Source of the DNA: a virus
Strand: one strand, 5' to 3'
DNA: 29,578 bases
Virus record (IMG/VR): IMGVR_UViG_3300017917_001398
Span: 1 to 29,578 of that record
Position numbers and translations under genes: made by a program. Positions within the stretch are counted from its first letter, which is position 1; each line of letters begins with the position of its first letter. Below the pieces are notes generated by a model. That model was not told where the DNA came from. It ran no database searches and saw only the letters and a program-made list of their open reading frames with translations. Shown piece by piece: positions 183 through 24,824 of this stretch.

Positions 183-186
183 TTTA

Positions 187-1887
187 TTATACAGTTTCGA
201 AATTTATGTAAGCATATTTTCCATTATCAAATGAACTTGTAATGGTAAAATTATATACACCTGATGTTAATGTTATATTTTGCGTACTATTAACAGTAAA
301 CGCATTTGCAGTAGCACTTAAACTTATATCACCCATAACAACACCTGTATTCGAACCTCCTGGTGTTGTACCACCAAATACATTCAATGTTACTTTTACA
401 CTATGTCCAGTATCAATTGTTAATGTACCAGTAGCATAACCATTGTTAGAATATCCAGCATTACTTGAACCTGTTACTGTGTATGGTAATGGGGTTGGTG
501 TTGGGGTTGCAGTTGGAGCTGGTGTTACAGTTGGTGTTGGTGTAGGTGTTAATGTTACGCCTGCTGGTACTGTTGCGGTTGGTGTTGGTGTCAATGTTGG
601 ATTAGGTGTAGGAGTTGGTGTTGCAGTGGTATCAGGTGTTGGAGTTGGAGTTGCGGTTGGGAATATTGGACAACTTGTTGCAGGTGATAAAAATATTGTT
701 TTGTTATTAAATGTTGTATCTGGATTAATTGTGTTAAAAAGAACTTCTACTATACGGTAATGAGTTCCATTTGATTCGTATACATAACTATTTACATCAG
801 CATCAATTGTCGTGTAACCTATAGAATAATATTGTAATCCGTCAACGCATGATTCCATCAAATAATAATATAATGGTACTGATAATGTTGGTTCTGGTGT
901 TGGGGTTGGTGTTGCTGTTAATGCAGGTGTAGGAGTTGGTGTAGCACCATATGCTGGTGTAGGAGTTGGAGTTGCGGTTGGTAATGGAGTTGGCGTTGCA
1001 AGTATAACGTTTGCACCACCTCTTTCATAAAATTTTATTGGATTAAATGTTGTACCTGTGTTCCATCCAACTCTTTCCGATAATGTACATCCTGTATGAA
1101 ATGTTACTGAACCACCTGTATAAGGAAAAACACAATATGTTCTACTAATGTGGTTGAAATCTACTTGATAATACATGTCATTTGTGTCATTTACAGTGTG
1201 TCCTGTTGTGAATCCACTATTAGTAAAATCTTGTATTTCAGCGGTTTTAGCATTCATAAATTTTGCTGACATAAAAAAGGTGTTACCCGTGCCATTACCA
1301 AAAAAATCTGTATCATCAATTACTTTTTCATCATCAAACCAAAACAAATACATGTTTTCTTTATTTCTATAATTAGAACCTTGGAATACAGGAACGTGAA
1401 TATAAAATTGTGATATACTATCTTTATAAAGGTATTTTTCTCCTAATGGTAATGATAAATTTTTAGCAAATACTAATTTTCTATTTTGTCTTGTTGGTTT
1501 TTCAAAACCAATTACATTTTTATTGGCATCTAATATACTTGGTGTTTTAAAAAATTCTAATCTGAAAAAACTTTCAGTTGCTTGTTTCAACATCAATTCA
1601 TTTTCTCTATGTGTAATATCAGTAGATGGTGCACTATAATCCTGTACATATGTTGAACCGCTAATAAAAAAGAATGAAAACCAAATATCTGTTTGTGGTC
1701 CAGCCAATCCATTATATTCAGTATGAATATATCTTACGGTTTCATAATTTAATGCAGGATTAATAATACTTTCTAATACTTCATTTTCAAAATCAACAAG
1801 ATTTTCTTGCCAACCTAAATCAAGTCTAAATTTTTGTTCGTTATTAATAACGATATTTTCAGCATTATTATTTCTAATTATTTTCAT
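187..1887 (-). CDS. Virion/tail protein with Thr-Pro linkers and C-terminal beta-domain
   Basis: A 566-aa protein with no recognised enzymatic domain. Residues 1 to about 290 form a globular N-terminal part. A Thr-Pro-rich linker follows (about 292-332), then a small domain (about 333-408, containing LYYYLMESC near its start and TSCP near its end), a second longer Thr-Pro linker (about 409-469) and a C-terminal beta-rich domain of about 97 residues containing SGVYNFTITSSF. The C-terminal domain resembles that of the 1322-aa protein at 3674-7642. An upstream in-frame TTG (1893) is possible, but the ATG at 1887 overlaps the previous stop as TAATG, so I chose it. Domains on flexible linkers at the end of a tail operon suggest a surface-exposed or receptor-contacting tail protein. 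That role is inference; the layout is seen directly. Confidence 0.8.
   Translation of the reverse strand: MKIIRNNNAENIVINNEQKFRLDLGWQENLVDFENEVLESIINPALNYETVRYIHTEYNGLAGPQTDIWFSFFFISGSTYVQDYSAPSTDITHRENELMLKQATESFFRLEFFKTPSILDANKNVIGFEKPTRQNRKLVFAKNLSLPLGEKYLYKDSISQFYIHVPVFQGSNYRNKENMYLFWFDDEKVIDDTDFFGNGTGNTFFMSAKFMNAKTAEIQDFTNSGFTTGHTVNDTNDMYYQVDFNHISRTYCVFPYTGGSVTFHTGCTLSERVGWNTGTTFNPIKFYERGGANVILATPTPLPTATPTPTPAYGATPTPTPALTATPTPTPEPTLSVPLYYYLMESCVDGLQYYSIGYTTIDADVNSYVYESNGTHYRIVEVLFNTINPDTTFNNKTIFLSPATSCPIFPTATPTPTPDTTATPTPTPNPTLTPTPTATVPAGVTLTPTPTPTVTPAPTATPTPTPLPYTVTGSSNAGYSNNGYATGTLTIDTGHSVKVTLNVFGGTTPGGSNTGVVMGDISLSATANAFTVNSTQNITLTSGVYNFTITSSFDNGKYAYINFETV
491..660 (-). repeat. Low-complexity Thr-Pro coding repeat (long linker)
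   Basis: Degenerate tandem repeats of a six-base unit encoding Thr-Pro or Ala-Thr-Pro, read on the plus strand as GGTGTTGGTGTAGGTGTT and variants. They encode the second linker of the 566-aa tail protein. The unit is mixed (GTT, GTA, GTG and GTC third positions), so it is a drifted repeat rather than a perfect microsatellite. Length change by slippage or recombination in multiples of six would keep the frame. Confidence 0.85.
891..1001 (-). repeat. Low-complexity Thr-Pro coding repeat (short linker)
   Basis: The same class of degenerate six-base Thr-Pro coding repeat, encoding the first linker of the 566-aa protein. It is interrupted by short non-repeat codons (for example the segment encoding AYGA). 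Its similarity to the 491-660 and 4039-4095 blocks makes intragenic and intergenic recombination possible. Confidence 0.85.
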
Positions 1888-3665
1888 TAACAATTATTTT
1901 TACTATTATAAAATGAAAATCCTGTCTTAACAGAATCATTTTTATTATTATATGAAAATTCATTTCTTAAATAGAAATTAATATCGCTCATTACGTGGTG
2001 TGTATTATTAATAAATGGAAAATTTGTACCGTTTCCGTCTGTGTCAATAAATCCATGGTCATATACATCTCTCCATTTCCATACATTTCTTACCGAATCA
2101 AATTTTGTATTTTCTGGTAAAAATAATACATCATTTGTTTTTGATTCTTCAACATACGGCGATAATTCCCTTAGTTTAATTCTATGATGTGGTTGATAAT
2201 AAAGTCCAACCATATTATTATCAGATGCACCAGAATAAACACATTCATTATTTTGACCGTGATTGAATATTGTTTTTCCCCCTATTGTCTTTTTATGTGA
2301 AAATTTATGGAATGCTTCACTTATAATTCTTTCTTTAAAATCATCACTATTATATTCAACAAAAGCACCAATTAATGTTGTGCCTGTTGGAATTGTATTA
2401 CCACTTGTAAACCCTGTAATACCAGTATTACCAGTAAAAGCTGTTTGTGTTATTGCTGTTTCAGTTGAACCTGTAAACATCTGGTCCATCCAATTATTAT
2501 GGAAATTAAACTTATAACCAACTTTTGGTGGATATGTAAAATAACCATTACCATTTCTTAATAATATTGTAACATAAACATCTGTTGGTGTATAACCTAA
2601 ATTGTTTGTAATACCACTTAATGTAAATGTTTTCTTAAAATCAAATAAAACAGATTCTGGTCTGTTTTTTTCAACAATCACATCTTCATCACCTAATTCA
2701 TTTTCAACCAATATTTTTTTCTCATTTTCAAAAATTGGATTTTCAAACCCAACTTTATCTAAAATGTAATCACTAACGTCTGTTAATGTTTTGTGTTTAT
2801 GTACATAATATTGGGAAGTTGTACCTGTTATATTCTTTATATTCAAACATCTTTTTCCTAATACAAATGTTACACCACTTAATGTATATCCACTTGTAAA
2901 TTCACTTTTTAATAAATTAATAACATATTTTTCTGAATTATATATTTCGTTACCGACGCTATCAATATAAATTGTATTTCTCGTTATAGACGAACCATTC
3001 AACGTTCCACCACTTAGGATAATATATTCACCTTGATTCATTCCGTGTTCTATAGGGGACGTTAATGTATAGTAATTACCATTGTCTTGTACTCTAAATG
3101 GAATACCGTTTCCTGCAACAAATGAATAATTTGTTCCACCGGAAAGTGTATAATTCATTGTAAAACCAGTATCATGTGAATCAACATAACTTAAATATAA
3201 ATTCCAATTATGATATGGCGCTTGTAATGATGTAATTTTAGTATGACCACTATATCCTGTTACAGAAATATTTGGAAAATAATTTCCAACTGTTGAGCCT
3301 GATGATGGTGTATTTAATTCTCTTACTACATCATTTCTTAATATTGCGAATTCATTATATGGTACAAACCCAACTTTATCGATTCCTGTACCATCATCAT
3401 ATAAATAAAACTTTTTTTGTAACGGTTCGTAATTAGTTGTACCTGAATACATGTTTCTGAAAACCATTTTTAATTTACCATAAATCTTATATTGATTTGA
3501 TATGTTCCTTTCTCTGTTAAATAATTCTTGTAAATTAATAACATTGTTCATATCACCTTCTCTTAACAATGATTGTTCGTTTTCTAAATTTACATTTAAA
3601 TTAACGTCTTCGTCATTTGCCTTAAAATATCTTTTACTCGGTAATAAAATTTTTTTCTTTTCCAT
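1887..3665 (-). CDS. Phage virion structural protein, family not identified
   Basis: A 592-aa protein with no signal peptide or membrane segment. It starts with a basic, charged N-terminus (MEKKKILLPSKRYFK). From about residue 120 it becomes rich in Gly, Ser, Thr, Asn and Tyr, with many short turn motifs such as SGGT, SGVT, GNTG and SGNT, typical of beta-strand-rich tail proteins. The C-terminal quarter has a more conserved look (LYYQPHHRIKLRELSPYVEE, then WKWRDVYDHGF). It lies 8 bases downstream of the 1322-aa protein, and its stop overlaps the next start (TAATG at 1889-1885), so the three are probably co-translated. A baseplate-to-fibre connector or fibre role fits its position between the wedge genes and the Thr-Pro protein, but I cannot assign a function from sequence alone. 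Confidence 0.75.
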   Translation of the reverse strand: MEKKKILLPSKRYFKANDEDVNLNVNLENEQSLLREGDMNNVINLQELFNRERNISNQYKIYGKLKMVFRNMYSGTTNYEPLQKKFYLYDDGTGIDKVGFVPYNEFAILRNDVVRELNTPSSGSTVGNYFPNISVTGYSGHTKITSLQAPYHNWNLYLSYVDSHDTGFTMNYTLSGGTNYSFVAGNGIPFRVQDNGNYYTLTSPIEHGMNQGEYIILSGGTLNGSSITRNTIYIDSVGNEIYNSEKYVINLLKSEFTSGYTLSGVTFVLGKRCLNIKNITGTTSQYYVHKHKTLTDVSDYILDKVGFENPIFENEKKILVENELGDEDVIVEKNRPESVLFDFKKTFTLSGITNNLGYTPTDVYVTILLRNGNGYFTYPPKVGYKFNFHNNWMDQMFTGSTETAITQTAFTGNTGITGFTSGNTIPTGTTLIGAFVEYNSDDFKERIISEAFHKFSHKKTIGGKTIFNHGQNNECVYSGASDNNMVGLYYQPHHRIKLRELSPYVEESKTNDVLFLPENTKFDSVRNVWKWRDVYDHGFIDTDGNGTNFPFINNTHHVMSDINFYLRNEFSYNNKNDSVKTGFSFYNSKNNC

Positions 3666-3673
3666 GTTGTTTA

Positions 3674-6600
3674 TTATACTTGTTCTAATTTAGCTTGTGT
3701 TACAGTTGTTGTTCCATCAGAAATTGCACTCACCGTCCAATTAGTAATATTGTATACACCAATACCTAATGTAAATGTTGCTGATGATGCGTTACCTTCA
3801 CCTGTACCACCAGTCAAACCTTGACCAGCATTATTTGGTGCATATGTATTAGAACCTATTGTTATTGAAGTACCTGATCTATAACCAGTACTTACCCAAG
3901 TTTTTAACCTTATTGTTACTGTTCCATTTATTACTGTTATTGTTGTACCACTTGTTTCTGTTGTTGTACCAATTCCACTTGTTCTAGCGGCAGTTATTGT
4001 TGTAGTTGAAAAACTTGCCGTTGGTATTCCACTACTAGTTGGAGTTGGTGTCATCGTAGGTGCAGGCGTTGGTGTAGGTGTTGGTGTTGCAGTTGTGTCA
4101 CTACAATCAGGTAATGCTGTTGGTATTGGTTCAGTCACATCAAACGCATCTTTAGGTCCATATAAATCAACAAATTTATCCATTGCAGTTGAACCTGCAA
4201 TTAAACCAAAATAAAATTGAAATGGCGTTGATAAAATTTGTTTATTACCATTATAATAATCTTCTCTTTTTGGTAAAATCACATCTTTCGATGTATTCCA
4301 TGATATTGTTTGATAAGTTGTACCATATCTAATATATAATGTTCCTGCTACTGGTGTCGCAATATTTCCACTTGTCACATGAAGATATGTGAAACCAGGA
4401 TATTGTTTCAAAAAATTAGTTAAATAAACACCAGTCAAAGGTTGTGTTGTTACATAGTCAAAATCAATTTCAGTTGTTAAGTCTAAGGATTCTACTAACC
4501 CATCCATATTTTTTGTTATAGGTAATAAAAGGTATTTTTCGTCTCTATTAGTTAAATGAATATAGTTTTTAGTCATACCTTGTAAAGGTTGTAATTCAAC
4601 ATTAAAATAATCCCAAGATTGTGCATTTCTATTCCCTGTGGATGGACCAAAACCAGGAGCACCTTTATCCCATAAATAAAAAGGTATCAATTGTGATGCT
4701 TCTGTTAAGTTACCAGGAGCATTTAAACATAATCTTGTTTTCTCACCGTCTTCACCAATTTCTAATGTAACAGGTAAAGGTCCCCAATTTCCACTTTCAT
4801 CTTGGAATATTTCAGGGTATATTTCGGGGTCTAAAACATTATATCTATATCCAACATAATTTGGATTTTCTAAATCAAATCTTTCAATACCAGTTTCACA
4901 ATTTGTTGATAATACTTGTAATATGTCCCCATCTAAAACACTAAATAAACCTACTTTTTCAAAACCTTCGTTTCCGAAAAACATATCTAAGTTACCGCTA
5001 TCGCCAGCAACATCCATTCTATAATTTATTGCTAAACCTAATACGTCGCCACCATCTTGATATGATGTTGGTGAAATATTCCTTATAACAGAACAATTAG
5101 GATCTAATGAATTATCAACACAAATATCTTTAATAAATTCGTCTCTCGGTCCTAAATCAACAAATGTTGTTGGTCTTACAATTCCTGATGGAATGAAAGC
5201 TCTTTTAGTTGTATCATAAGCTGCTGACCTATAATAAAATCTATTTTGGTCAAAAACATATCTAATTACCTCTCTACAATATTTTGCAATTGATTCTGTA
5301 CCAACTTCAACTGCTCTTGCTAATTTTCTAGTTTGGAATTGTGGGAAATATAATGCACCAGATAACCAGTTATCAACAAAACCAAAATTAATTATACCAC
5401 CACAAAACATTTTATTAACACGTTTTCTTCTATAATATTCATTAATAATTTTACGTAGTTTTCTATTTGTTTGTGAACCAGGAACAATATAAAAAATACC
5501 ATTTTTAAATTCACTTCTACCACTTAATGTTATATCTACCTTTTCACCATTATCAAAACAATGTGTAACTTCAACTAAACCCAGTCCCCACCAAGGATTT
5601 TTTGTGAAACATATTCTTTTTCTACCCGTATAATTACCATCATATACACCATGTGACTCTGAAAGACCAGGGTTGTCATAAGGATAATATGATTTCGGCC
5701 TTAAACCACCATATTCACCATATATCGCGCATCCAACTATTTGACGTCCTGCAGCTAACTCAGCTTTTAAATCTGTTATATTGTCAATGTATTTTCTACC
5801 ATAATTTTCGGGAAAACATTGACCTATAAAAGAATCTGTATTTTCAGTTACCGTAGTAACACAATTATTTGTTGGGTCGTCTACAAAATATGCTGTGATT
5901 AATGCATCGTCATATGGTACATCATAATAATCACAATTGCCCGATTCATCATCACACTCACTACAATCGGGATAGTTTACAAGTAATAATGTTGTTGATG
6001 TATTTGCAATAAAACTATTAACCGCACCTCTTAAACTTCTAGTTGTTTCACTTGCAGCAGCAGATATAACTGCTTCAACTATTCTTCTAAAAAATGGAAC
6101 CAAAAAATTTAGAACGGTTAAGACAATTAATTTTATAATATAATCAATTAACAATAGAACGTCCGCTATAAAGAGAGGAAATGAATATCTTTTAACACCA
6201 AAGTTTACTGGTGGTGTTACTTTATCACCACAATCCTCTTCTTCAGTTGGTAAAATATCTGTTATATTTGCAAAAGCTTTTTCTCTTAACCAAGTAAAAC
6301 CCATTTGATGTTTATGGAAAGACGAAACTGTATAAACTTTATTATATTGGAATCTATAAAAATAATCTTGTGGATAATATGCACCTGTATCATCTGCATT
6401 TAAAATTAGACTCTGCGCATCAGTTGGATAACCACTATACTCACTTCCAAAATAATATGACCTATCGTCTATTGCGCCATCTACATTATATTCACGAATA
6501 TTTGGCAAAAGATAATCAGCTCTTTTACCATTTGCAATAGCACCACTTGCATTCATATTAATTCTAAATCTATATATGCCTGCTGTTGGAATACCTTTAT

Positions 6601-7642
6601 TTGGGTCATTCGTAATTTCATTCTCACCAAATTCATTTGTAACAACATGTTCCAAATTCATTTCTATTGGCATTACAAATGCACCATCATCTTCGATATC
6701 TTCATCTAAATCTGTATACTCAATAAATGGTCTATTCAATTCATCTCTTTCCTGTCTGAACCTTAGGGCTTCAATTTTACCTGAGCGTGCTTCTAAAGAA
6801 CATTTGGTTCCCATTCTCTTTTTAGGGGCACAATTTTTCTTTAGTGTATTTCTTCCTGAATCAGTAAAAATACTACCAATAATATATGCTTTAGGTTGTA
6901 TGTTAATACCTAATGTTGATGTGTCGAAATCTGCTCTTGTAATTGCTATGTCACATAAACTCTCATTTCCCCAAAATGGGTAAACTTCAATATTCCTATC
7001 GAATGTAACTACTTGTGGTAATGAATCTAAATCAGCTGAAGCTTTGTATGTATATTTGTTTTTAAAATCATCAATCCCAAGACCTAATCTAGATAAATCT
7101 GCTGGTCTTAATGAGAAACAACCAATATCAGATAAATCAATATCAACATGTAATTCGTGGTTACCTACTGGTACACCCCATATCATGAAATCACCAGCGT
7201 TGTTTGTTTTTACAGTATATCTATAATATTTTTCATATACTTCTAAAACCTCTTCTCTTTCTAAAATGTCTGATTGGTCTGGAAATGTCCCAATTGGTGT
7301 GTGACCCCCATGTTGTTTTCTAGATGGAAATAAATTATATCTTAATCCATCTGAATTTTTGTCACCGATTTCCTTGTATGGGTACAATGCACTTATTACA
7401 GGGTCTTCGCTGTCTTCGTCTGTTAATGGAACAAAAATAGAAACTCTTGCGTTCGCAAGACCAAATCCATTGTTTGCACTAACTCTACCGCAAATAACAC
7501 CATAGTCAGAGCAACCCGATGTAAAAATTTGTTCCTGTGTAAATTTTAAAGATAAAATCTCTAATACATCAAAATCCTGTTTAAGTTCAACAGTTACCTT
7601 TTGATCTTGTCCTATGTTGGTTGAAATTCTATGTTTTTGCAT
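3674..7642 (-). CDS. Large virion protein with carboxypeptidase-regulatory-like domain and Thr-Pro-linked tail
   Basis: A 1322-aa protein. Residues about 43-175 look like a carboxypeptidase-regulatory/transthyretin-like beta-sandwich: VICGRVSANNGFGLANARVS, then TNNAGDFMIWGVPVGNHELH, the pattern in which a sandwich strand pair is followed by 'N-x-x-G-x-F-x-x-x-G-V-P-x-G'. A strongly hydrophobic run lies at about 487-517 (LLLIDYIIKLIVLTVLNFLV is its core), followed by an amphipathic, Ala-rich segment. A cysteine cluster (CSECDDESGNC) lies near residue 557. A Thr-Pro linker (about 1181-1207) joins a C-terminal beta-rich domain containing IGVYNITNWTVS, similar to that of the 566-aa protein. It sits directly after the gp6-like wedge gene, behind a hairpin leader. 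A baseplate-distal or fibre-anchoring role is inference. The hydrophobic segment is unusual for a virion protein. Confidence 0.8.
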   Translation of the reverse strand: MQKHRISTNIGQDQKVTVELKQDFDVLEILSLKFTQEQIFTSGCSDYGVICGRVSANNGFGLANARVSIFVPLTDEDSEDPVISALYPYKEIGDKNSDGLRYNLFPSRKQHGGHTPIGTFPDQSDILEREEVLEVYEKYYRYTVKTNNAGDFMIWGVPVGNHELHVDIDLSDIGCFSLRPADLSRLGLGIDDFKNKYTYKASADLDSLPQVVTFDRNIEVYPFWGNESLCDIAITRADFDTSTLGINIQPKAYIIGSIFTDSGRNTLKKNCAPKKRMGTKCSLEARSGKIEALRFRQERDELNRPFIEYTDLDEDIEDDGAFVMPIEMNLEHVVTNEFGENEITNDPNKGIPTAGIYRFRINMNASGAIANGKRADYLLPNIREYNVDGAIDDRSYYFGSEYSGYPTDAQSLILNADDTGAYYPQDYFYRFQYNKVYTVSSFHKHQMGFTWLREKAFANITDILPTEEEDCGDKVTPPVNFGVKRYSFPLFIADVLLLIDYIIKLIVLTVLNFLVPFFRRIVEAVISAAASETTRSLRGAVNSFIANTSTTLLLVNYPDCSECDDESGNCDYYDVPYDDALITAYFVDDPTNNCVTTVTENTDSFIGQCFPENYGRKYIDNITDLKAELAAGRQIVGCAIYGEYGGLRPKSYYPYDNPGLSESHGVYDGNYTGRKRICFTKNPWWGLGLVEVTHCFDNGEKVDITLSGRSEFKNGIFYIVPGSQTNRKLRKIINEYYRRKRVNKMFCGGIINFGFVDNWLSGALYFPQFQTRKLARAVEVGTESIAKYCREVIRYVFDQNRFYYRSAAYDTTKRAFIPSGIVRPTTFVDLGPRDEFIKDICVDNSLDPNCSVIRNISPTSYQDGGDVLGLAINYRMDVAGDSGNLDMFFGNEGFEKVGLFSVLDGDILQVLSTNCETGIERFDLENPNYVGYRYNVLDPEIYPEIFQDESGNWGPLPVTLEIGEDGEKTRLCLNAPGNLTEASQLIPFYLWDKGAPGFGPSTGNRNAQSWDYFNVELQPLQGMTKNYIHLTNRDEKYLLLPITKNMDGLVESLDLTTEIDFDYVTTQPLTGVYLTNFLKQYPGFTYLHVTSGNIATPVAGTLYIRYGTTYQTISWNTSKDVILPKREDYYNGNKQILSTPFQFYFGLIAGSTAMDKFVDLYGPKDAFDVTEPIPTALPDCSDTTATPTPTPTPAPTMTPTPTSSGIPTASFSTTTITAARTSGIGTTTETSGTTITVINGTVTIRLKTWVSTGYRSGTSITIGSNTYAPNNAGQGLTGGTGEGNASSATFTLGIGVYNITNWTVSAISDGTTTVTQAKLEQV
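4039..4095 (-). repeat. Thr-Pro coding repeat in the 1322-aa protein
   Basis: A short degenerate repeat of the same type as those at 491-660 and 891-1001 (plus-strand unit GGTGTAGGTGTTGGTGTT). It encodes TPTPTPTPAPTMTPTP just before the C-terminal domain. It is the only Thr-Pro block in this gene and marks the domain junction. Confidence 0.8.
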
Positions 7643-7644
7643 TC

Positions 7645-7684
7645 TTATAATAAATAGAAACTATCTGATTTTCTACTATTATAA
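7645..7684 (-). promoter_or_regulatory. Stem-loop immediately upstream of the 1322-aa virion gene
   Basis: Nested inverted repeats fill the 54-base gap between two structural genes. The outer arms are TTATAATA (7645-7652) and TATTATAA (7677-7684), 8 bp. The inner arms are TAGAAA (7655-7660) and TTTCTA (7670-7675), 6 bp. A 2x1 internal loop separates the arms and the apical loop is 9 bases. The structure ends two bases before the ATG of the downstream gene on the minus strand. There is no U-tract, so it is not an ordinary terminator. It could control translation, be a processing site or overlap a promoter. The inverted repeat is seen directly; its function is not known. Confidence 0.45.
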
Positions 7685-7696
7685 CTAAAATTTCAA

Positions 7697-9529
7697 TTAA
7701 AATGTAGTCGTTCCAAGAGTCTTAACCCTTACTTTTATATCTTTATTTGGGAATCGTATTTGAAATATTTGATTAGACTTCATATAAATTGTTTTGTCTA
7801 ATTGTTGTATTTCTCTAGTTTGGTTGTTTACATAAGCTTGAGCAACTTGTGCTGATGAATATTGACCTCCAATCATATTAAAAACTCTAATATCAATAAC
7901 GTTTTCAACACCGCTTACATTACCAATTTCTTTAGATAAACCACCAATTAATAGTGGGTCACCCATTTTACGTCTGCCAAAATCAAAATAATTTGTAACA
8001 TCTTGGATTACGGCTTGTATAATATCAGCTTGGCTTTCATTTTTATCTACCGCTAAATCAATTTCTAAACTCATATCTATCACTTCACCTGTTTCGATGT
8101 CAACATAGTCGTTAATCATTTTATATTCCGATAGGTAGGATATAATATTATTTTTTAATGTATTTGAAACAAGATTTGTTAAGCTACCTTTTTCATCATA
8201 TGATAATAATTTGATTCTCACTTTATTATCTTCTTCCATAACATTTACTTTTGCAGGTGCACCAAATGTTGCTGGCATTGTTTCAATCAATGATTTGTAG
8301 TCATTTAAAGTAACCGCTCTATCTTGTGCTGCAAAGTTATAACCAACCATGTTTCTAATTTCATCTATTGTTGGTAAATCAGAACCACCAACCGCAGGTG
8401 TTATATTCTGAACTCTTAATGAGTTTACAACTTGTGTGTTTTTTGTTGAGTTGGTACCATTAACGGTAAATTCTGCAGAATCAATACTACTAATTACATT
8501 AACCCCTAAGTTAGTATCTTTACCTCCACCTACTCTATATTTTATGAATAATGTTGTACCTACTTTAGGTATTTCACCTAACGACATATTATTCAAATAT
8601 GACCCCAAGCTAACTTTCAAATCACCTGTAATATAGTTATCCAAATTGTCTAAAGGATTTACATTACCTGAACCGAATGTAATTGAAAAATAGTTTTCAG
8701 GTGTATGTTCAGTAATGAATTTTTTGGTAACTGGTCTATATGTTCCTGCTTTGAAATTAACAGTATCAGATACTGTTGTTGCATCTGGTAAAAAAACTTT
8801 ATCTTCAATTAAAGATTTAACCTCGTACCATTTATTTGTTTCACTTGCAAATTCTGAATATGTTGGATTTGCAAAGAATGTTGTTCCATCTTTATGGATT
8901 ATTGATGTTACACCTAGTACGTTTTGTTCTGGTAAATAAATTTTCAAGAAAGGTTTTTGGTCAGCCTCTGTAATAACTTTTCTAAAAATTTTAGTTACGC
9001 CATTTACAACTGCTTCTCTTTTTGTAATTGTATATTTTATAGGAACGTTGTTTGCATCAAAGTTTGGTATTTTTAATCTGTTTGGTTCTCCTTTACTATT
9101 AAAAGGTTGTGAAAAATCAATGTCTTCAATCGTTTCAAAGATTTGTCCTCCGCCTGATAATTGTGTTCCTGCTCTTAAAATACCTAAATAGCTTTCATCT
9201 TCCTTATCACCTTTTACCGGTACATCTATTGAAAAATCACATAAAGCAACTGACGGTCTCACACCTGGTATTTTTATGCCATATGTTTTTGCTATATGAA
9301 ATAATGATTGTCTTTGTTGTGCAAAGTCTAACATTGTTTCTTGCCAAACTCTATCAATATGAAAGTGTAAGTTATCCGCAACTGCAGCATTTAAATCTAA
9401 CAATACTGAGTATATTGATGCATCATTAAAGTTTTGTACTAATTCTGGATAATATTGTTTTGTTAGGTTAACTAATTCACTTCTTAAACTAGCGAAATCT
9501 CTAACTCCGTATGTAATTTTTTTACTCAT
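7697..9529 (-). CDS. gp6: T4 gp6-like baseplate wedge protein (baseplate J family)
   Basis: A 610-aa protein matching the T4 gp6/baseplate J-like family, whose dimers join neighbouring wedges into the baseplate ring. The N-terminus (ITYGVRDFASLRSELVNLTK, then FNDASIYSVLLDLNAAVADN) and the segment around residues 376-420 (VGGSDLPTIDEIRNMVGYNF, then QDRAVTLNDYKSLIETM) are typical. The latter is the conserved 'A-x-D-R-A-V-T-x-x-D-Y' signature of J-like proteins. Length is close to T4 gp6 (about 660). Its ATG overlaps the stop of the gp25-like gene as TAATG, so the two wedge proteins are translationally coupled, as expected for subunits of one complex. No Shine-Dalgarno sequence is present. The family call is firm. 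Confidence 0.93.
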   Translation of the reverse strand: MSKKITYGVRDFASLRSELVNLTKQYYPELVQNFNDASIYSVLLDLNAAVADNLHFHIDRVWQETMLDFAQQRQSLFHIAKTYGIKIPGVRPSVALCDFSIDVPVKGDKEDESYLGILRAGTQLSGGGQIFETIEDIDFSQPFNSKGEPNRLKIPNFDANNVPIKYTITKREAVVNGVTKIFRKVITEADQKPFLKIYLPEQNVLGVTSIIHKDGTTFFANPTYSEFASETNKWYEVKSLIEDKVFLPDATTVSDTVNFKAGTYRPVTKKFITEHTPENYFSITFGSGNVNPLDNLDNYITGDLKVSLGSYLNNMSLGEIPKVGTTLFIKYRVGGGKDTNLGVNVISSIDSAEFTVNGTNSTKNTQVVNSLRVQNITPAVGGSDLPTIDEIRNMVGYNFAAQDRAVTLNDYKSLIETMPATFGAPAKVNVMEEDNKVRIKLLSYDEKGSLTNLVSNTLKNNIISYLSEYKMINDYVDIETGEVIDMSLEIDLAVDKNESQADIIQAVIQDVTNYFDFGRRKMGDPLLIGGLSKEIGNVSGVENVIDIRVFNMIGGQYSSAQVAQAYVNNQTREIQQLDKTIYMKSNQIFQIRFPNKDIKVRVKTLGTTTF

Positions 9530-9978
9530 TATATGTTAATTATTATAAAATCTGACGTTGAAAACGCACCATTATTTACTGTATATTCTATTTTAACTTT
9601 TGCTGTATATGGTTTAGAAGTTGAATCTGAAACCCTGAATAATCTTTCATCTTCTTGTTGAGCCCATGTTGTGGCCTCATCAGGGTCATCTTCTGCTGAC
9701 ATTACTTGTATTGTATTGATATCCAAGTTGGGTATGTATTTTTTTACTGTAGACCTAATCTCATCTTCTATATGATTGAACGTAACTAAATCATTCTGTT
9801 CAAAAATATATTCATATAATCTAGTTCCAAAGTCAGGTAGATAATATCTACTACCCTTTCTCGTCAATAGAAGGTGGATTAAATTAGCTCTAACCTCTTT
9901 TTCAGGTGTTTCTGTCATTCCAACATAATCACCCTTTGTACTGTCCCTAAATGGAAAATCTATACCATATGTAGCCAT
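9529..9978 (-). CDS. gp25: T4 gp25-like baseplate wedge protein (GPW/gp25 family)
   Basis: A 149-aa protein of the gp25/GpW lysozyme-like-fold family, a core wedge component that touches the sheath and triggers its contraction. The diagnostic stretch is EKEVRANLIHLLLTRKGSRY followed by LPDFGTRLYEYIFEQND, matching the family pattern 'I-R-x-N-L-x-x-L-L-x-T-x-x-G-E/S-R-x-x-x-P-x-F-G'. Another in-frame ATG six codons upstream (9996) lies inside a small A/T-rich inverted repeat. The ATG at 9978 gives the usual family start (MATYGIDFPF), so I chose it. It is followed by the gp6-like gene with a one-base overlap. It is the first gene of the second structural block, 29 bases after the DUF5522 gene. 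Confidence 0.93.
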   Translation of the reverse strand: MATYGIDFPFRDSTKGDYVGMTETPEKEVRANLIHLLLTRKGSRYYLPDFGTRLYEYIFEQNDLVTFNHIEDEIRSTVKKYIPNLDINTIQVMSAEDDPDEATTWAQQEDERLFRVSDSTSKPYTAKVKIEYTVNNGAFSTSDFIIINI

Positions 9979-10007
9979 GTTAATAAATATAATCATTACT
10001 AAAATGA

Positions 10008-10178
10008 TTATGTATCTTCTTTTGTTTGGGTATTACCTTTAATGTGTTTTGGTTCATAAGGACAGCTTTTACATTTGTTACCACAGCAATATCCTCGTTT
10101 TAATAAAAAAAGAGAAGTCAGAACCATAAGTCCTGACTCCTCATCAATGTAGTAATCTACACCCTCTACTAAAGCCAT
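10008..10178 (-). CDS. DUF5522-family small cysteine-rich protein
   Basis: A 56-aa gene fitted exactly behind the ribonucleotide reductase: its ATG overlaps the reductase stop (TAATG). The core, ESGLMVLTSLFLLKRG followed by YCCGNKCKSCPYEP, matches the DUF5522 family pattern 'G-L-x-V-x-T-x-x-Y-H-L-x-R-G-Y-C-C-G-x-x-C-x-x-C-P-Y', known to me from Bacteroidota and elsewhere. The four cysteines (31, 32, 36, 39) include a C-x-x-C pair and suggest metal binding or redox activity. The function of the family is unknown. The middle of the gene also forms a terminator-like hairpin followed by seven T residues (see 10105-10142); the T-run encodes the Phe-Leu-Leu of LFLL, where the family usually has Tyr-His-Leu. 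Coupling to the reductase hints at a linked role, which is inference. Confidence 0.88.
   Translation of the reverse strand: MALVEGVDYYIDEESGLMVLTSLFLLKRGYCCGNKCKSCPYEPKHIKGNTQTKEDT
10105..10142 (-). terminator. Intrinsic terminator embedded inside the DUF5522 coding sequence
   Basis: On the minus strand, GAGGAGTCAGGA (10142-10131) pairs with TTCTGACTTCTC (10123-10112) over 12 positions around a 7-base loop, and is followed at once by seven T residues (10111-10105). Two of the pairs are G-U on the minus-strand RNA but A-C mismatches on the opposite strand, so the hairpin is stronger in the direction of transcription. It lies 36 bases past the reductase stop, within codons 13-25 of the DUF5522 gene. 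It has every sequence hallmark of an intrinsic terminator. Whether it acts while ribosomes translate the gene is not known. Confidence 0.75.
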
Positions 10179-12439
10179 TAGATTGATGTTACATCACATT
10201 GAGCCCCACTACAAGCCTGAGCAGCGTAATCACTAACACTCTTGTATTGTGGTTTATCTAAAATTTCCCCAAAATTTACTTCTTTAAATTGGCGTGTGAT
10301 AGTTTCCCACTTGTAGAATAAATGTACGTCTTTAAGACAATATACCATCTTTCTCAAATCACCTTTAAAGTAATTCTTAGCAAATTTCTTCGCTCTTGAT
10401 ATCCAATATTTCTTTAATAATACTTGTTCTCTAGTTCCTGTTACAGGTATTGAATCATCTAATAATGTGTCAGTTGCTAACCACAAATTATTTTGGAAGT
10501 AGTGTAAACCATCAATAATTAAACCTGATGCTAAGATAGAACCTTTACCATATGTTTCAACAATTTCTTCTAAATTAAGAACTGATGTAAATGGTGCTTG
10601 GTTGAAATCTTTATCTCCATAATCACCTAAGAAAGACACAGCAGTGAAATAATCTTTGTTTTCCCAAATATATTCAACAATAGCATCTTTGTCATCGATA
10701 ATAACAGTACATGATGTATTGTGATTTACTGAAGGGTAAGCACATAATTCATGATTTGTACCCGCATTAACCCAATGGGTTTGAACTAATTTAATTAATT
10801 CCAAGTGCTTAATACCTTTCATGTCTTTTTTATAAAGACCTTGTTTGGGATTTTCAACAGGTACGAACACAACATAATCAGATTTAGTTGATGACCATAC
10901 ACTTTCTTCTAACAAGAAAGACATATTATCTTCTAACCATTTTGCGGTATTACTTTCTTTATTCAACTGCATAATACGGAAGTATTTTTCAGAATGTTCT
11001 GGATGAATACCAGATGCTGTACCTAACACAACTGACGCGTTACCTGATGGTTTTACGCAAGTTGTTCTAGCCGCTTGATTAATACCAATTACCTCAGCAA
11101 CTTCTTTGTTTGTATCCTTAACCATCTTAGCACCTTCTTCTAATAATTCAGCATTAAATAATTTAGGGTTATTCATCCAACCTGTAATACTAACACCTAA
11201 CAACGCTTCTCTTTCAAAGATTGCTTTACTAACTGAACCCAAATATGGGAAGTCTGTATAACCTGCTTGTAATGTACCTAAAATAGATGCATCCTTACAT
11301 GCCTTTAAAAATTTCTCTTTTGTTGTTGCCTTTTCAGCATTGATTTCTGTTAAGTTACAACCTTGAATACCAAACTTTGATTTGTTGTTTCTTACATAAT
11401 CTTCCACATCTTCGTATGCAATTTTAGAAAAATCTACGGTATCTAATACAGGAATTTTTAAAATTTCAAAACATGGATTGAACATGTCGAACCAACTATT
11501 TGCAAATACAAATCCAATATCATTTGCTCCGTCATTTAATTTAACTAGATATTCAAATTGTTCTTTCTTTACTTGATCTCTTAACAAGATAACTGAATTG
11601 TTACTTCTACCTCTTTGTGGGTTTTCCATAAACCAGTTACCTGTTTTAGCATGTATCATTTCATCGTCGTTAGGGTCAACAATCATGTTCAACGCCGAAC
11701 GTCTTACACCTCCAGATAAAACCGCGTCTGCAGAATGACAGATAATATCAAAAGCTAAGATTGGTCTAATTTTTTCACCTTCATTAGTTATCCATTTTTC
11801 AATCAAAGTTTCAATCTTTTCTAAAGATTGTTTTAAACCTTCAGGACCAGGAGCTTTGAACCCACCACTAATGTGTGCACCTTTTTCTCTAATAAATGAA
11901 TAATCAAATTTAATTTCATAACCAGCATATTCAGGGAATGGTTGATTATCAACAAAATATGAAGACATCAAAACGCCTAATGAATCTGCCCATCCTTCAA
12001 TTGAATCCTCAATATAGAATGTTTTAGTTCCTAATGTTCTTTTTTGTAATCTACTTAAGTTGTTAACAAAAGGAATTAACAATCCTCCACCAAATCCACA
12101 ACCAGATAGTGCTAAATAAAATATCTCTTGAAACACCCTGTTACGAGCAATGTGTCCTGATGTACAGTTAAACATTCTCGTATTATGTTTCATAATTTGT
12201 TCGTGTCTGTATTGTAAGTTTCTTTGAGAAGCCAAGACAGCTTGGTCTTTCATGCTATCTACAGCACTTTGTAAATACGGTTCAACAGCTTCAGATACTT
12301 TTTTGTATTTTTTTCTGTGTCCGTCAATTATGTTCTCGCAGGCATCTTCCCATGTTTCGTACCTACTTTCATCTTCCAACCATTTGAAATAATCTGAGTG
12401 CAATTTTAAGTCACTCAGAAACTTTTTACCTTTCTGCAT
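10178..12439 (-). CDS. nrdJ: Class II (adenosylcobalamin-dependent) ribonucleoside-triphosphate reductase
   Basis: A 753-aa monomeric B12-dependent ribonucleotide reductase, making deoxynucleotides for phage DNA synthesis in the cytoplasm. Length is close to the Lactobacillus leichmannii enzyme (739 aa). Visible catalytic features: Cys114 in LSGCGFGGG (one half of the active-site disulfide), the radical-site motif NPCFE (Asn321, Cys323, Glu325), Cys361 in GIQGCNLTEI (probable other disulfide half) and the C-terminal redox pair Cys743/Cys748 in ACSGAQC. No NrdB-like subunit or NrdG activase is nearby, as expected for class II. A GGA element lies 12 bases before the ATG, one of few possible ribosome-binding sites here. 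It is the last gene of the replication block, and its stop overlaps the DUF5522 start. No intein or intron is present. Confidence 0.95.
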   Translation of the reverse strand: MQKGKKFLSDLKLHSDYFKWLEDESRYETWEDACENIIDGHRKKYKKVSEAVEPYLQSAVDSMKDQAVLASQRNLQYRHEQIMKHNTRMFNCTSGHIARNRVFQEIFYLALSGCGFGGGLLIPFVNNLSRLQKRTLGTKTFYIEDSIEGWADSLGVLMSSYFVDNQPFPEYAGYEIKFDYSFIREKGAHISGGFKAPGPEGLKQSLEKIETLIEKWITNEGEKIRPILAFDIICHSADAVLSGGVRRSALNMIVDPNDDEMIHAKTGNWFMENPQRGRSNNSVILLRDQVKKEQFEYLVKLNDGANDIGFVFANSWFDMFNPCFEILKIPVLDTVDFSKIAYEDVEDYVRNNKSKFGIQGCNLTEINAEKATTKEKFLKACKDASILGTLQAGYTDFPYLGSVSKAIFEREALLGVSITGWMNNPKLFNAELLEEGAKMVKDTNKEVAEVIGINQAARTTCVKPSGNASVVLGTASGIHPEHSEKYFRIMQLNKESNTAKWLEDNMSFLLEESVWSSTKSDYVVFVPVENPKQGLYKKDMKGIKHLELIKLVQTHWVNAGTNHELCAYPSVNHNTSCTVIIDDKDAIVEYIWENKDYFTAVSFLGDYGDKDFNQAPFTSVLNLEEIVETYGKGSILASGLIIDGLHYFQNNLWLATDTLLDDSIPVTGTREQVLLKKYWISRAKKFAKNYFKGDLRKMVYCLKDVHLFYKWETITRQFKEVNFGEILDKPQYKSVSDYAAQACSGAQCDVTSI

Positions 12440-15366: not shown

Positions 15367-16341
15367 TTACTCTTCTTCTGTTACAACATCTAAAATATCT
15401 GCGTCTGTAACATTAACGCCTAGCTGTTTGCTAATATATTCGCCATGGTCTTTTTTGTATTTTTCAATACTTTTCTTTTCTTCACTATCATCTCTACCTT
15501 TCATAAAGTCATGAGCAGTTACCAAAATTCTACCATCTTCATATCCTAAACCATTAACATGATTTTTCATGATTGAGATTTTTGTTCTAGTAGCTATTTT
15601 AGTTTTTCTTCCTTCTTTTGTGATTGAGATTTTAGTTGTACCTGCTCCTTTTTGGTTTCCAAATAAGAACACTAAAGTAGAGTTTAACCATATTGCTTCA
15701 CCACCTTTAGCCTTAATCTTTGGTTGTCCGAAAGGATTGTCTGGTAATTCAACCCATGGTTGGTTTACAATAATCAATGTGTTAGTACATTTTTTGTCTG
15801 TACGTCTTGAACCTGAAATTCTTTGATTAATTCCCATTCCAATTTTATCTGCTAAAACAGATGCATTGTGTTGTTTACCGCCTTTACCTTCGTATGTCAT
15901 TTTACATGGAACTGAACCAACAGAATCCCAAAGGAATAATAAATCGCTTTCAATATCACCCTTTTCCTGAGCATCTAAAATATCATTGATATAATCAGTA
16001 ATTTGTTCGATGTATTCAAAATCGCTATTGAATAGATAATCAGATTCTCTATTGAAGCCCATTAATTCAGCATGAGCCCAACTCCATTTTTGTTCTGTAA
16101 TAATAAACACAGGAACAATACCTTTCTTCTGAGCATCTACCGCTGACTTCACGAGTGCTGTTGTTTTACCTGTATCACTATGTCCTAAAAACATATTGAT
16201 ATGACCTATTGCAGGACCAGGAATACCTGTTGCATCAATGAATGCATCACCCAAATCTAAAAAGCGGTCTGCTTTATATTCAGCCTCTTTTGAGAATTTC
16301 TTTTTTATTGAGTCAAAATTGTTTTTCTTTATACCTGCCAT
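15367..16341 (-). CDS. uvsX: UvsX/RecA-like recombinase
   Basis: A 324-aa RecA-fold recombinase, the phage counterpart of T4 UvsX, which drives strand invasion for repair and recombination-dependent replication. Walker A is GHSDTGKT (53-60), with a Ser-Asp-Thr in place of the usual RecA Glu-Ser-Ser. Walker B is LLFLWDS (134-140), followed by the VGSVPCK segment. NQPWVELPDNPFGQPKIKAK at about 200 corresponds to the DNA-binding loop region, and the C-terminus is acidic (DVVTEEE). It lies 54 bases downstream of the SSB gene and 17 bases before the nuclease gene. Length is shorter than T4 UvsX (391 aa), mainly at the ends. The leader before the ATG is A-rich with no adjacent Shine-Dalgarno. Confidence 0.93.
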   Translation of the reverse strand: MAGIKKNNFDSIKKKFSKEAEYKADRFLDLGDAFIDATGIPGPAIGHINMFLGHSDTGKTTALVKSAVDAQKKGIVPVFIITEQKWSWAHAELMGFNRESDYLFNSDFEYIEQITDYINDILDAQEKGDIESDLLFLWDSVGSVPCKMTYEGKGGKQHNASVLADKIGMGINQRISGSRRTDKKCTNTLIIVNQPWVELPDNPFGQPKIKAKGGEAIWLNSTLVFLFGNQKGAGTTKISITKEGRKTKIATRTKISIMKNHVNGLGYEDGRILVTAHDFMKGRDDSEEKKSIEKYKKDHGEYISKQLGVNVTDADILDVVTEEE

Positions 16342-18619: not shown

Positions 18620-21600
18620 TTATTCTACAACAAAATAAACAACATCATTATCTTTTAACCCTAATTTATCCATTAAAGCTACAGATAAGGATATACCAAA
18701 GTTACCATTTGTTGTTTTTGGACCATAATTAACAGGTCCTTTAACAACTCTTGGTTTGTTTACGTTACCATCTAATTTATAATCATGAATAAAACCGTAT
18801 GTTTTATTTGTTGCAGGATTTAAGAATGATATTTGCGCTTTAGCTATATCAACAGCTTTTGCTTTTTTCAAATTAAATCTTAAAGAATAGAAGTAATATT
18901 TGTCACTTAAATCTCTAATTTCACTCCACTTCATACCAGGTGGATTTATTGTTGAACCAAATTCTGTGGCATCTAAATTTGAGATAATTGTTAAATCGTC
19001 ATTTTCGTTATAAGAATCAAATAAACCACCCATGGTACAAACGTATGCTCTATACCATTCCTGTCCAGCATCATAGTTACCCATAACTGTTGTGGTTTTT
19101 ATTTTTGTCAAATACATTTCACCATCAAAACCATTATATGTTATACCAAAGTTGTCAACTCCTGCTTCGCTTACTAAATTAACTCTTTCTTTTTCTAGAG
19201 GCTTAGGTCCAACATCAACAACATATGAACCATTAGAAGTTGTCAATGTAACTAAAGTTTGTACTTGATTCTTGTTTGCATTAGAAACTTTAGTTTGTGC
19301 AGACTGAGATATCTTATCAAATAATACACGATATGAAGATGTGAATGAATCTGCCAAATCTGGTAATTCCATGTATGGCATTCTAGCTCCTTTAAATGTT
19401 GTTGTAATAGTGTTATTAGCAATTTTGTGTGATACCTCTGTAATCCAATATGTACCTTTAAACATCGGTACGTTTTTAAGATAGAAATACATTGTTGGTT
19501 GTATCATTACATTACCCATACAAGTTACCTCGCATGAATATGCTGCTTGTCTATAATAGTCATACAAACTAACATCCACATTGTATGTTGACGAACCTGA
19601 TTCAGATTTCGCAATATTTTCCAATACAACAAATGCTTCAGTTGTATTTTTTAATGTTGATTGGTCTAATGATATACTTTTAAAAATACCTTGGTTCTGG
19701 TCACCAAAACTTAATTCAAATGCAATAACTCTATTTGATTTTATTAAATCTGCAGTTTGAAACACTTTAGGGTTTTCAATTAATACTGGATTGTTAACAG
19801 TATTTGATATATCAAAACTATCATCCAAATATTTGTATTTCTTATGTTCTGACATGTCTAATCTCTTAGATAAATTCATAACATACTGTACAATTATTTT
19901 CGGTGATGATTCTTGGAAATCAACCTCAGAGAATGTACCAAACAATGTAGATGCTACAGTCTTTGAAGGTAATAATTTTGGATTTTTTGCTGTGACGTTT
20001 GCGCCGTAATAATTTACATACGCAGGTAAAGCTTTCATATCAAAACCAGTATTTTGTAAAAGTAATGATATTGTACCATATAAACTTTGTTTAGCATTAC
20101 CTTCATCAGCCAAACTAATAATCCTATCTAAATTTAAAAAATATTCTTGTCCTATGTCACGATTTGCTTTATCTAAGAATAAAAATTCTTCAATCAAATT
20201 CCTTTGACCTATCGAATTACCACCAATCCATTTATCATTAAATGACTTAAAATGATTATACAATTCTAATTTTAAACCCGAATCGTTATAACCATTTGTA
20301 ATGTCTATTTGATTTATATTATTTTGTGTGATAGTATCTTTGTAAACCTTTTTAACTACATTATTTAAAAATAAACTAAATCTTTCCGCAAAACCCTTAA
20401 CAGAAGAATTTGTATCACTGTCTTTGTTAAAAATATTAGTCTTGATATATGTTTTAAAATCATTAAGTGTTCTACCAGTATATTCTCTATTATAACCAGC
20501 ATACAATAATGCTAATTGTCTAAAATCTTTAACATTTTGTTCAGTTAAATCTACGTTTGTATATTTGAAAAAATCCAAATAATAGTTTGTATCATAATAT
20601 GTTTTTGAAACCGAATCATATGATTTTGGTTCTTCTCCGATATACAAATCAATTAAATACTCATTTGTATCATCTGTATAGTCGTCATACTTTAAAATGT
20701 TGTTATTATCAATCTCAGCAAAACCATGGAAAATATGTAAATCTAATTCTTTGCTATTACCAAATGTTAATTTAACTAAATTATTTTCATCTAATATGCC
20801 TTGTGTAATTAATTTTAATTTTTCAATCTGTTCATTATAAATTTCTGTAATTTGTTCTGAGGCTGTAGTAGATGTAATTTTAGTCTTTTTAACACTTACA
20901 ATTTCTTTTAACAAATCTTGGAAGTTATAATATTTGATATTATTGAATGGCGGGTTTTCAGCTGTAGTTGTTAATCTTTCACTCGCAAATTCTAAAAACT
21001 GATATTCAAATTCTTCCAATATATTAGGGCTAAAGGTTCCTATTAAATCATATACTTTACGAAAATCTTTTCCGCTTTGAGAACCAAATTGGTTATCATA
21101 TATATCTTTTTCATCATAAATTCTTGTGTATTGTGTTGGGTCCGCAAATGTTACACCTGTCTGATAGTAATTTTGGTTGAAAACTTCTTGCTCCCAAAAT
21201 ATTCTATAATTGTTAAATGTATCGTCTTCGAAAGTTCTACCTGATGTTGTATATTTTATACCTGGTAATAAATTCAAAAGCTTAGCTTGTTTCTTATCAT
21301 ATGTAATTTTATCAGCATCACTGTTCTTTCCATTTGAAGGTAATATCGTAAATCTTTCATCCCCTTCAGTATATTTTGAATTATCAACAAAAGATGTCCA
21401 GTAATTCCTGTTAATAGATGAGGTAAATTTATGTGATACAATTTTACCATTACTAGTGTTTGCTGAATACTCAAGATTACCTAACACAAAATTATATGGT
21501 TGATAATCATTTACAACTTGATGAAATATTGCGTCATAGAATGGATGTATACCTAAATCTGTTTCATTGGAATTTGTTATTTCAGTTGTTGTGCCGTTTG

Positions 21601-24511: not shown

Positions 24512-24824
24512 AATATAAGTTATACATTTCTACCGCTCTTTTGTAGTCTTGTAGTGAATTAACTAAAGGAAAAGGTATTCTTAATAAGAAATTATCTGGT
24601 ATTTCAAATTCAGTACCTACGATACCTGGATTGGCCATCATTATCAACCAACCAAAAGTTGGTGAATCATAATATTCTTGTGAAATTTTATCTAATCTAT
24701 CTTTACCGCTTTTAAAATACAAATACTTGTCAGTTCCCTTAATATTAATCTCAATACCAGGAACAATTTTAAAACTTCCATTTTCTATAAAAAATTGGTA
24801 CCTGTCATAATAATCTCTACTCAT
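24501..24824 (-). CDS. gp53: T4 gp53-like baseplate wedge protein (LysM-like)
   Basis: A 107-aa protein resembling T4 gp53, the small wedge protein with a LysM-like fold that helps lock wedges together around the hub. The core is VPGIEINIKGTDKYLYFKSG, then RLDKISQEYYDSPTFGWLIM and NPGIVGTEFEIPDNFLLRIP. This is the usual 'D-x-L-x-x-I-A-x-x-x-Y-x-x-P-x-x-W-W-x-I-x-x-x-N' pattern ending in a proline-marked strand. It is shorter than T4 gp53 (196 aa) and close to the LysM-like core alone. It overlaps both giant neighbours (8 bases at its start as ATGAGTAG, 11 bases at its end), so the three are tightly coupled. Confidence 0.85.
   Translation of the reverse strand: MSRDYYDRYQFFIENGSFKIVPGIEINIKGTDKYLYFKSGKDRLDKISQEYYDSPTFGWLIMMANPGIVGTEFEIPDNFLLRIPFPLVNSLQDYKRAVEMYNLYYGE

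Follow-up and report, generated by a model that had tools for sequence, protein, structure and literature searches.

Can the ends of phage tail proteins be exchanged as modular parts, and where do such exchanges break and rejoin the genes? This question is raised by a 29,578-nucleotide (nt) stretch of DNA from an uncultured phage (IMG/VR virus record IMGVR_UViG_3300017917_001398, positions 1 to 29,578; hereafter the window), in which two tail-region proteins of 566 and 1322 amino acids (aa), named p1 and p3 here, both end in a threonine-proline (Thr-Pro) linker followed by a domain, A in p1 and B in p3. The original prediction saw in these ends a mobile, exchangeable domain, and comparison with related phages upholds this: close relatives differ by entire tails, and domain B is found on three different proteins. 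We consider it likely that conserved tail platforms display exchangeable, probably glycan-binding, C-terminal domains.

Architecture of p1 and p3

All genes and features of the window given below with coordinates lie on the minus strand unless stated. p1 (187-1887) is 566 aa long when read from its ATG, or 568 aa when read from a TTG upstream at 1893. Its conserved N-terminal part, residues 1-289 (1021..1887), is delimited by 67 orthologs and by the alignment with the locus L044, and is called the platform here. It is followed by a first Thr-Pro linker (874..993), a middle module (YYYLMESCVDGLQYY...; 670..873), a second Thr-Pro linker (487..669), and domain A, a C-terminal all-beta domain of 99 aa (190..486) that ends at the stop codon 187-189. 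Both linkers are recognised from the translation and from repeat families, and domain A from its copies in relatives and a structural model. The extra module between the two linkers had gone unmentioned in the original prediction; it differs in the relatives that have domain A, and weakly matches the middle module of L041 (26% over 96 aa).

p3 (3674-7642) consists of a platform of residues 1-1169 (4136..7642), supported by 34 loci and by 78 distinct relatives that reach the platform end, a Thr-Pro linker region evident in the translation (4019..4135), and domain B, a C-terminal all-beta domain of 114 aa (3677..4018; stop codon 3674-3676), again recognised from copies in relatives and a model. 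Between them lies p2, a conserved 592-aa protein (1887..3665) with no tail in the window. The translation agrees with a Thr-Pro linker and a domain at the end of both proteins, and the motifs SGVYNFT and IGVYNIT and the terminal GTA-TAA-TAA of the two genes are present as described. Tandem TAA-TAA is no signature, because 3 of 16 window genes checked have it. A 105-aa frame of Val-Gly repeats on the plus strand (443-760) lies opposite the Thr-Pro linker and was rejected as a gene, being a mechanical antisense open reading frame of that linker.

Tails are gained, lost and replaced

Relatives were collected by IMG/VR scans, which gave 34 p3 loci, five domain-A loci and the best 80 of 385 p1 loci. 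After removal of identical and contained sequences, 67 p1 sequences among these best 80 of 385 reach the platform end; 40 of them continue into a tail of at least 35 aa (three are truncated by a contig end), and 27 stop within 12 residues. For p3, a tail of at least 35 aa is present in 8 of the 78 sequences reaching the platform end (one of these tails has 50 aa), and the remaining 70 stop within 20 residues. p2 has a tail in 1 of 63 sequences, that of L029. In this locus the p3 and p2 relatives (2355-8252 and 8466-10994) both have long, otherwise unmatched tails.

The nearest of the 66 other p1 sequences, L044, has a platform identity of 75.1%, aligns with the window platform over residues 1-334 of its protein (218 of 289 residues identical) and carries a tail on neither p1 nor p3. 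At the p1 site, DNA homology between the window and L044 stops at 1023 (L044 8000) and restarts at 185 (L044 7999); the L044 DNA is continuous there, and the 837 window bases of the p1 tail cassette (186..1022) have no counterpart in it. At the p3 site, homology stops at 4150 (L044 5182) and restarts at 3665 (L044 5205).

Tails are also replaced. L102 and L103 have p1 platforms identical in amino acids and unrelated tails; L051, L055 and L075 share a near-identical N-terminal part followed by unrelated C-terminal domains; and in L036 and L094 the difference is limited to the last domain, with the right junction at the stop codon. The end-domain of L094 was tried as a relative of A, without support (hhalign probability 0.6%; 56 of 1000 and 130 of 1000 shuffles at or above its scores). 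Copies of domain A, 70% identical, end p1 in L036-L040. One of these loci, L038, has a platform 59% identical to that of the window and a different middle module, and p3 is tail-less in four of the five, the four in which it is visible.

A quick tree of the p1 platforms requires at least 15 changes of tail presence, whereas 200 shuffles of the tail labels gave a mean of 21.5 changes and never fewer than 17. Therefore, p1 tails are in part inherited, yet still often gained or lost.

One domain on several platforms

In the window, L041 and L042, domain B is the last domain of p3 (73-75% identity; the L042 p3 frame contains one TAG). It also ends a p1 relative in L043, which is cut by the contig end and whose p3 is without a tail, and a third protein in L134/L139 and L135/L140, together with a diverged version of that protein in L141. 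The third protein has an additional module between its Thr-Pro linker and domain B. Between L140 (4338-5351) and L141 (4200-5351), the tails are identical at 181 of 183 residues, whereas the third-protein platforms are identical at 31 of 85 aligned residues (36.5%). DNA homology of the two stops at the L140 start codon, restarts inside the linker and continues past the stop codon. Read from this alignment, the pair is a mirror-image swap, with near-identical tails on diverged versions of the third platform.

Tail families common to p3 and p1 further connect L116 with L030 (33% over 208 aa) and L058 with L110 (36% over 348 aa). Family counts are not taken from one clustering of the tail segments, which merged families via multi-domain segments. 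Additional weak profile matches to A or B among all open reading frames of the loci were judged to be chance; the strongest paired B with a p2 relative in L120 (E 0.0035) and A with the p3 relative of L043 (E 0.015 and 0.001). Outside the p1, p2 and p3 classes, 53 deduplicated open reading frames encode further large proteins with long Thr-Pro arrays, some of them downstream of p1 (for example L038 8406-12296 and L107 10607-12460).

Junctions lie in linkers and near gene ends

Junctions were examined in 18 p1 pairs with platform identity of at least 80% and discordant tails. Both junctions were mapped in 14 pairs, and the left junction was not found in 4; the pairs have members in common and are not independent. 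Linker membership was scored within 4 residues using a lenient mask. The search for right junctions ran from 60 nt before the stop codons onward with matches of at least 100 nt, so that earlier junctions would be missed.

When both members carry unrelated tails, all five mapped pairs place the left junction in the linker on both sides, and three have a right junction no more than 4 nt from the stop-codon end on both sides. The right junctions are at -1 and +237 in L102/L103, and at -48 and +227 in L102/L107. From the p1 stop codon to the restart of L103 homology, L102 has about 236 extra bases (8777-9012), which may be a remnant of an exchanged tail. When only one member carries a tail, eight of nine mapped pairs have their right junction no more than 20 nt from the stop end on both sides; the left junction is at most 4 residues from the platform end in five and 24-30 residues before it in four. 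For two of the four pairs without a mapped left junction, BLAST pieces locate the breaks: L078/L111 at the end of the platform and 13 to 46 nt beyond the stops, L088/L104 inside the linker and 59 and 356 nt beyond the stops. As far as aligned DNA can tell, the cassettes are shown to be modular, optional and exchanged, with junctions that fall in linkers or close to stop codons and, in one case, at a start codon.

The original prediction had placed the recombination breakpoints in the linker repeats. This describes the five mapped pairs with two unrelated tails and L140/L141, but not the tail/no-tail pairs, whose left junctions are at the platform end or up to 30 residues before it. Nor do the linkers share a DNA site beyond what their amino acids demand. 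The p1 linkers share exact words of at most 11 and 15 nt with the p3 linker, with no excess over codon-preserving shuffles (473 of 500 and 146 of 500 at or above), and these shuffles lend no support to the linker DNA as a special recombination site. In the p1 relative of L078 (7001-8590), the linker is a Gly-Ser-Ser repeat instead of Thr-Pro, which fits a spacer role. Judged by its sequence, the linker is best regarded as tolerant of junctions, with microhomology that is incidental, and not as a special site.

Folds of the end-domains

AlphaFold2 models of both domains are all-beta and of low confidence, with a predicted local distance difference test (pLDDT) score of 65.7 and a predicted template modelling (pTM) score of 0.58 for B from 6 sequences, and 61.2 and 0.52 for A from 3 sequences. 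In a test for a beta jelly-roll fold, a Foldseek search of the PDB with the model of A gave three matches at E <= 0.001, led by chains that bear the carbohydrate-binding module (CBM) family CBM6, with TM up to 0.57 by query. By VIA structural comparison, the collagen-binding domain of ColG (1nqj), of the PPC/collagen-binding type, is the first match of B (Z 8.6, root-mean-square deviation (rmsd) 2.5, 91 aligned) and the second of A (Z 8.5, rmsd 2.8, 88 aligned), after a beta-glucosidase domain (Z 8.8), although Z values of this size may, by the tool's own warning, reflect a common arrangement. The two lists have 25 of 50 entries in common. Glycan or receptor binding by the end-domains is plausible from the weak CBM-like matches in Foldseek and Pfam.

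The BFVD search with B returned two matches at E <= 0.001, an uncharacterised protein of an uncultured phage and a nameless one. Searches of p1-p3 and part of the cargo proteins against Pfam, PHROGs and NCBIfam gave no informative match, and the p1N, p3 and p2 profiles gave no convincing match to PDB sequences. A match of p1 residues 278-339 to phrog_15511, as well as SslE and S-layer matches in NCBIfam, overlap the Thr-Pro linker and were taken as low-complexity.

Gene neighbourhood

The window contains a tail and baseplate gene cluster of an uncultured phage. p3 adjoins genes for baseplate wedge proteins like T4 gp6 (7697..9529; phrog_219, E 2.8e-20) and like T4 gp25 (9529..9996; PF04965, E 8.7e-13), and the order p3-p2-p1 presumably occupies the place of T4 gp7, gp8 and onward. 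No PHROG or PDB sequence match links p1-p3 to gp7 or gp8, though the position after gp25 and gp6 fits. The virion role of p1-p3 is read from gene order, because these proteins match no known family convincingly.

A UvsX-like recombinase (15367..16341; phrog_97, E 8.4e-11), a possible agent of exchange, is encoded in the window beside a single-strand binding protein and an exonuclease. In a check for diversity-generating retroelements, which included no reverse-transcriptase search, the repeats of at least 40 nt within the window were linker repeats only. A ribonucleotide reductase (10178-12439; phrog_367) shows a weak match to the insertion domain of the B12-dependent type. Two very long proteins of 1963 and 1567 aa (18620-24511 and 24817-29520) have no match in PHROGs or Pfam at E <= 0.01 or in NCBIfam at E <= 0.1.

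Bases 1-25000 of the window have no megablast match among phage records. The gp6-like protein matches eight phage records, the top three groups at 27-28% identity being an uncultured phage, Flavobacterium phage immuto and a Microcystis phage; nine neighbouring proteins in immuto (gp6 27.7%) include no homolog of p1, p2 or p3. A tblastn search of 50,697 phage records gave one match for A, at E=4, and none for B and p3. No p1N or p2 relative was found in genome contigs, and therefore no host is indicated.

Exchangeable tail ends and rival explanations

Our explanation takes p1, p3 and, in relatives, a third protein to be platforms that can carry an optional C-terminal cassette before the next gene. 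The cassette consists of a flexible Thr-Pro linker and then one or more small domains. Such a linker would let a foreign domain ride on the virion, and since it would leave the platform undisturbed, recombinants that break in linkers or at gene ends would survive. Exchange may proceed by ordinary recombination between conserved neighbours, perhaps via the UvsX-type recombination of the phage itself, and the end-domains may bind host-surface or environmental glycans and so tune adsorption. Host-interaction modules show this pattern, in which domains are replaced while the platform stays nearly identical.

More tentatively, and as a possibility that we hold less firmly, Thr-Pro linkers may form a standard socket, by which at least three tail-region platforms take cassettes from a shared pool. 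An exchange from linker to stop codon would then swap the tail, and one from start codon to linker would swap the platform. A phage population could in this way explore adhesin combinations, sampling several displayed adhesins at once.

Several points weigh against exchangeable, glycan-binding tail ends. The models of A and B are weak (pLDDT 61-66), and the model of B has no Foldseek match in the PDB at E <= 0.001. Domain A reaches 13.5 bits against Pfam CBM_6 (E 0.089, residues 6-95), below the cut-off of 28.9, and matches DUF4397 (2 of 3 members, E 0.076) and Big_1 (E 0.19) equally weakly; B has no match in Pfam. Binding by the end-domains is inferred, as is the place of p1-p3 among virion tail proteins, for which gene order is the evidence. 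In addition, the right junction is remote from one or both stop codons in two of the mapped pairs, and the p1 tails are partly inherited.

The cassettes might instead be general virion decoration, acting as spacers, shields or non-specific adhesins to particles or a polysaccharide matrix and not as host-specific binders. Tails are indeed dispensable, being absent in 27 of 67 p1 and 70 of 78 p3 sequences, and the structural matches include a collagen-binding domain. Such roles have been proposed for the immunoglobulin (Ig) domains of T4 Hoc, which, in the accessible part of PMC10385173, combines a conserved anchor, variable domains and possible reversible attachment. However, replacement by unrelated domains on near-identical platforms suggests, without proving, selection for specificity, and we regard general decoration as unlikely.

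A and B might also go back to a single ancestral domain that was copied from p1 to p3 or the reverse within one phage, as was implied when the two domains were first called related. They have the same end motif, GVYN.T, at a similar position in both models, and share half of their listed structural matches. It is possible, as the low-confidence models suggest, that they belong to one fold class. Kinship in sequence, however, did not hold up: the Smith-Waterman score is 46 against a shuffle mean of 49.4, with 1299 of 2000 shuffles at 46 or above, and two further pairings were equalled or exceeded by 663 of 1000 and 154 of 1000 shuffles. Profile-profile alignment by hhalign gave a probability of 6% and aligned only 15 columns around TL..GVYN.T, with a P-value of 0.0062 that applies to one single comparison. 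All relatives found for A are on p1, and for B they are on p3, p1 and the third protein; no contig contained a pair intermediate between A and B. A common ancestor copied within one phage is therefore rather improbable.

That the swaps are assembly artefacts, with metagenome assemblers led by repetitive linkers to join unrelated sequences, is very improbable: such linkers do occur in many genes of these contigs and some junctions, as in L140/L141, fall within them, but individual platform-tail joins are each present in more than one contig (L051-L054; L083-L087; L036, L037, L039 and L040), homology restarts near stop codons and not just in the linker in three of five unrelated-tail and eight of nine tail/no-tail pairs, and the stretch that the window has in excess of L044 is cleanly bounded by a platform end and a gene end.

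If conserved platforms do display exchangeable end-domains, the uncultured phages of this group draw on a common pool of add-on tail-end domains, moved between tail proteins by flexible linkers. This would provide a natural, testable model of how adhesion changes without rebuilding the baseplate. In addition, a sequence rule (from linker to stop codon, or from start codon to linker) would find candidate adhesion domains in metagenomes, and would be useful where these match no known family.

Comparison with known systems

The exchange of tail ends at Thr-Pro linkers is a variation on the known mosaicism of receptor-binding proteins. Among T4-type adhesins, gp37 and gp38, tail adhesin modules are exchanged at short conserved low-complexity motifs. 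These are other proteins, and their motifs are glycine-rich, unlike the Thr-Pro linkers here. Bacterial polysaccharide-degrading enzymes carry small beta-sandwich carbohydrate-binding modules at protein ends, with Pro/Thr-rich linkers. p1 and p3 likewise have small end modules on Pro/Thr linkers, and CBM6 and CBM35 are among the fold matches, but there is no enzyme here and domain A does not reach the Pfam family cut-off.

Our searches of the openly accessible literature brought up no report that describes Thr-Pro linkers in phage tails or a domain pool common to three platforms, and the accessible part of PMC12619734 shows no link to p1-p3. As described in the part of PMC10385173 cited above, Hoc carries variable Ig-domains on a capsid anchor. 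The proteins studied here resemble T4 Hoc and similar capsid fibres in having a conserved virion anchor and variable beta domains on flexible linkers. They differ in that Hoc is on the capsid and not the tail, its domains are Ig-like, and its anchor is C-terminal, whereas the platform here is N-terminal.

The accessible part of Smug et al. (2023, PMC10684548) describes phage neck and tail-fibre proteins whose near-identical N-terminal parts are joined to unrelated C-terminal domains, and neck proteins with exchanged carbohydrate-binding-type domains. The proteins analysed here are alike in two respects: close relatives combine a conserved, near-identical N-terminal part with unrelated C-terminal domains (L102/L103 and L051/L055/L075), and a domain, here B, is common to otherwise unrelated proteins. 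They differ in that the platforms belong to no known family and in having a Thr-Pro linker as the pivot; 'linker' as a word is absent from the text of PMC10684548. Furthermore, one domain here ends three platforms of a single phage group.

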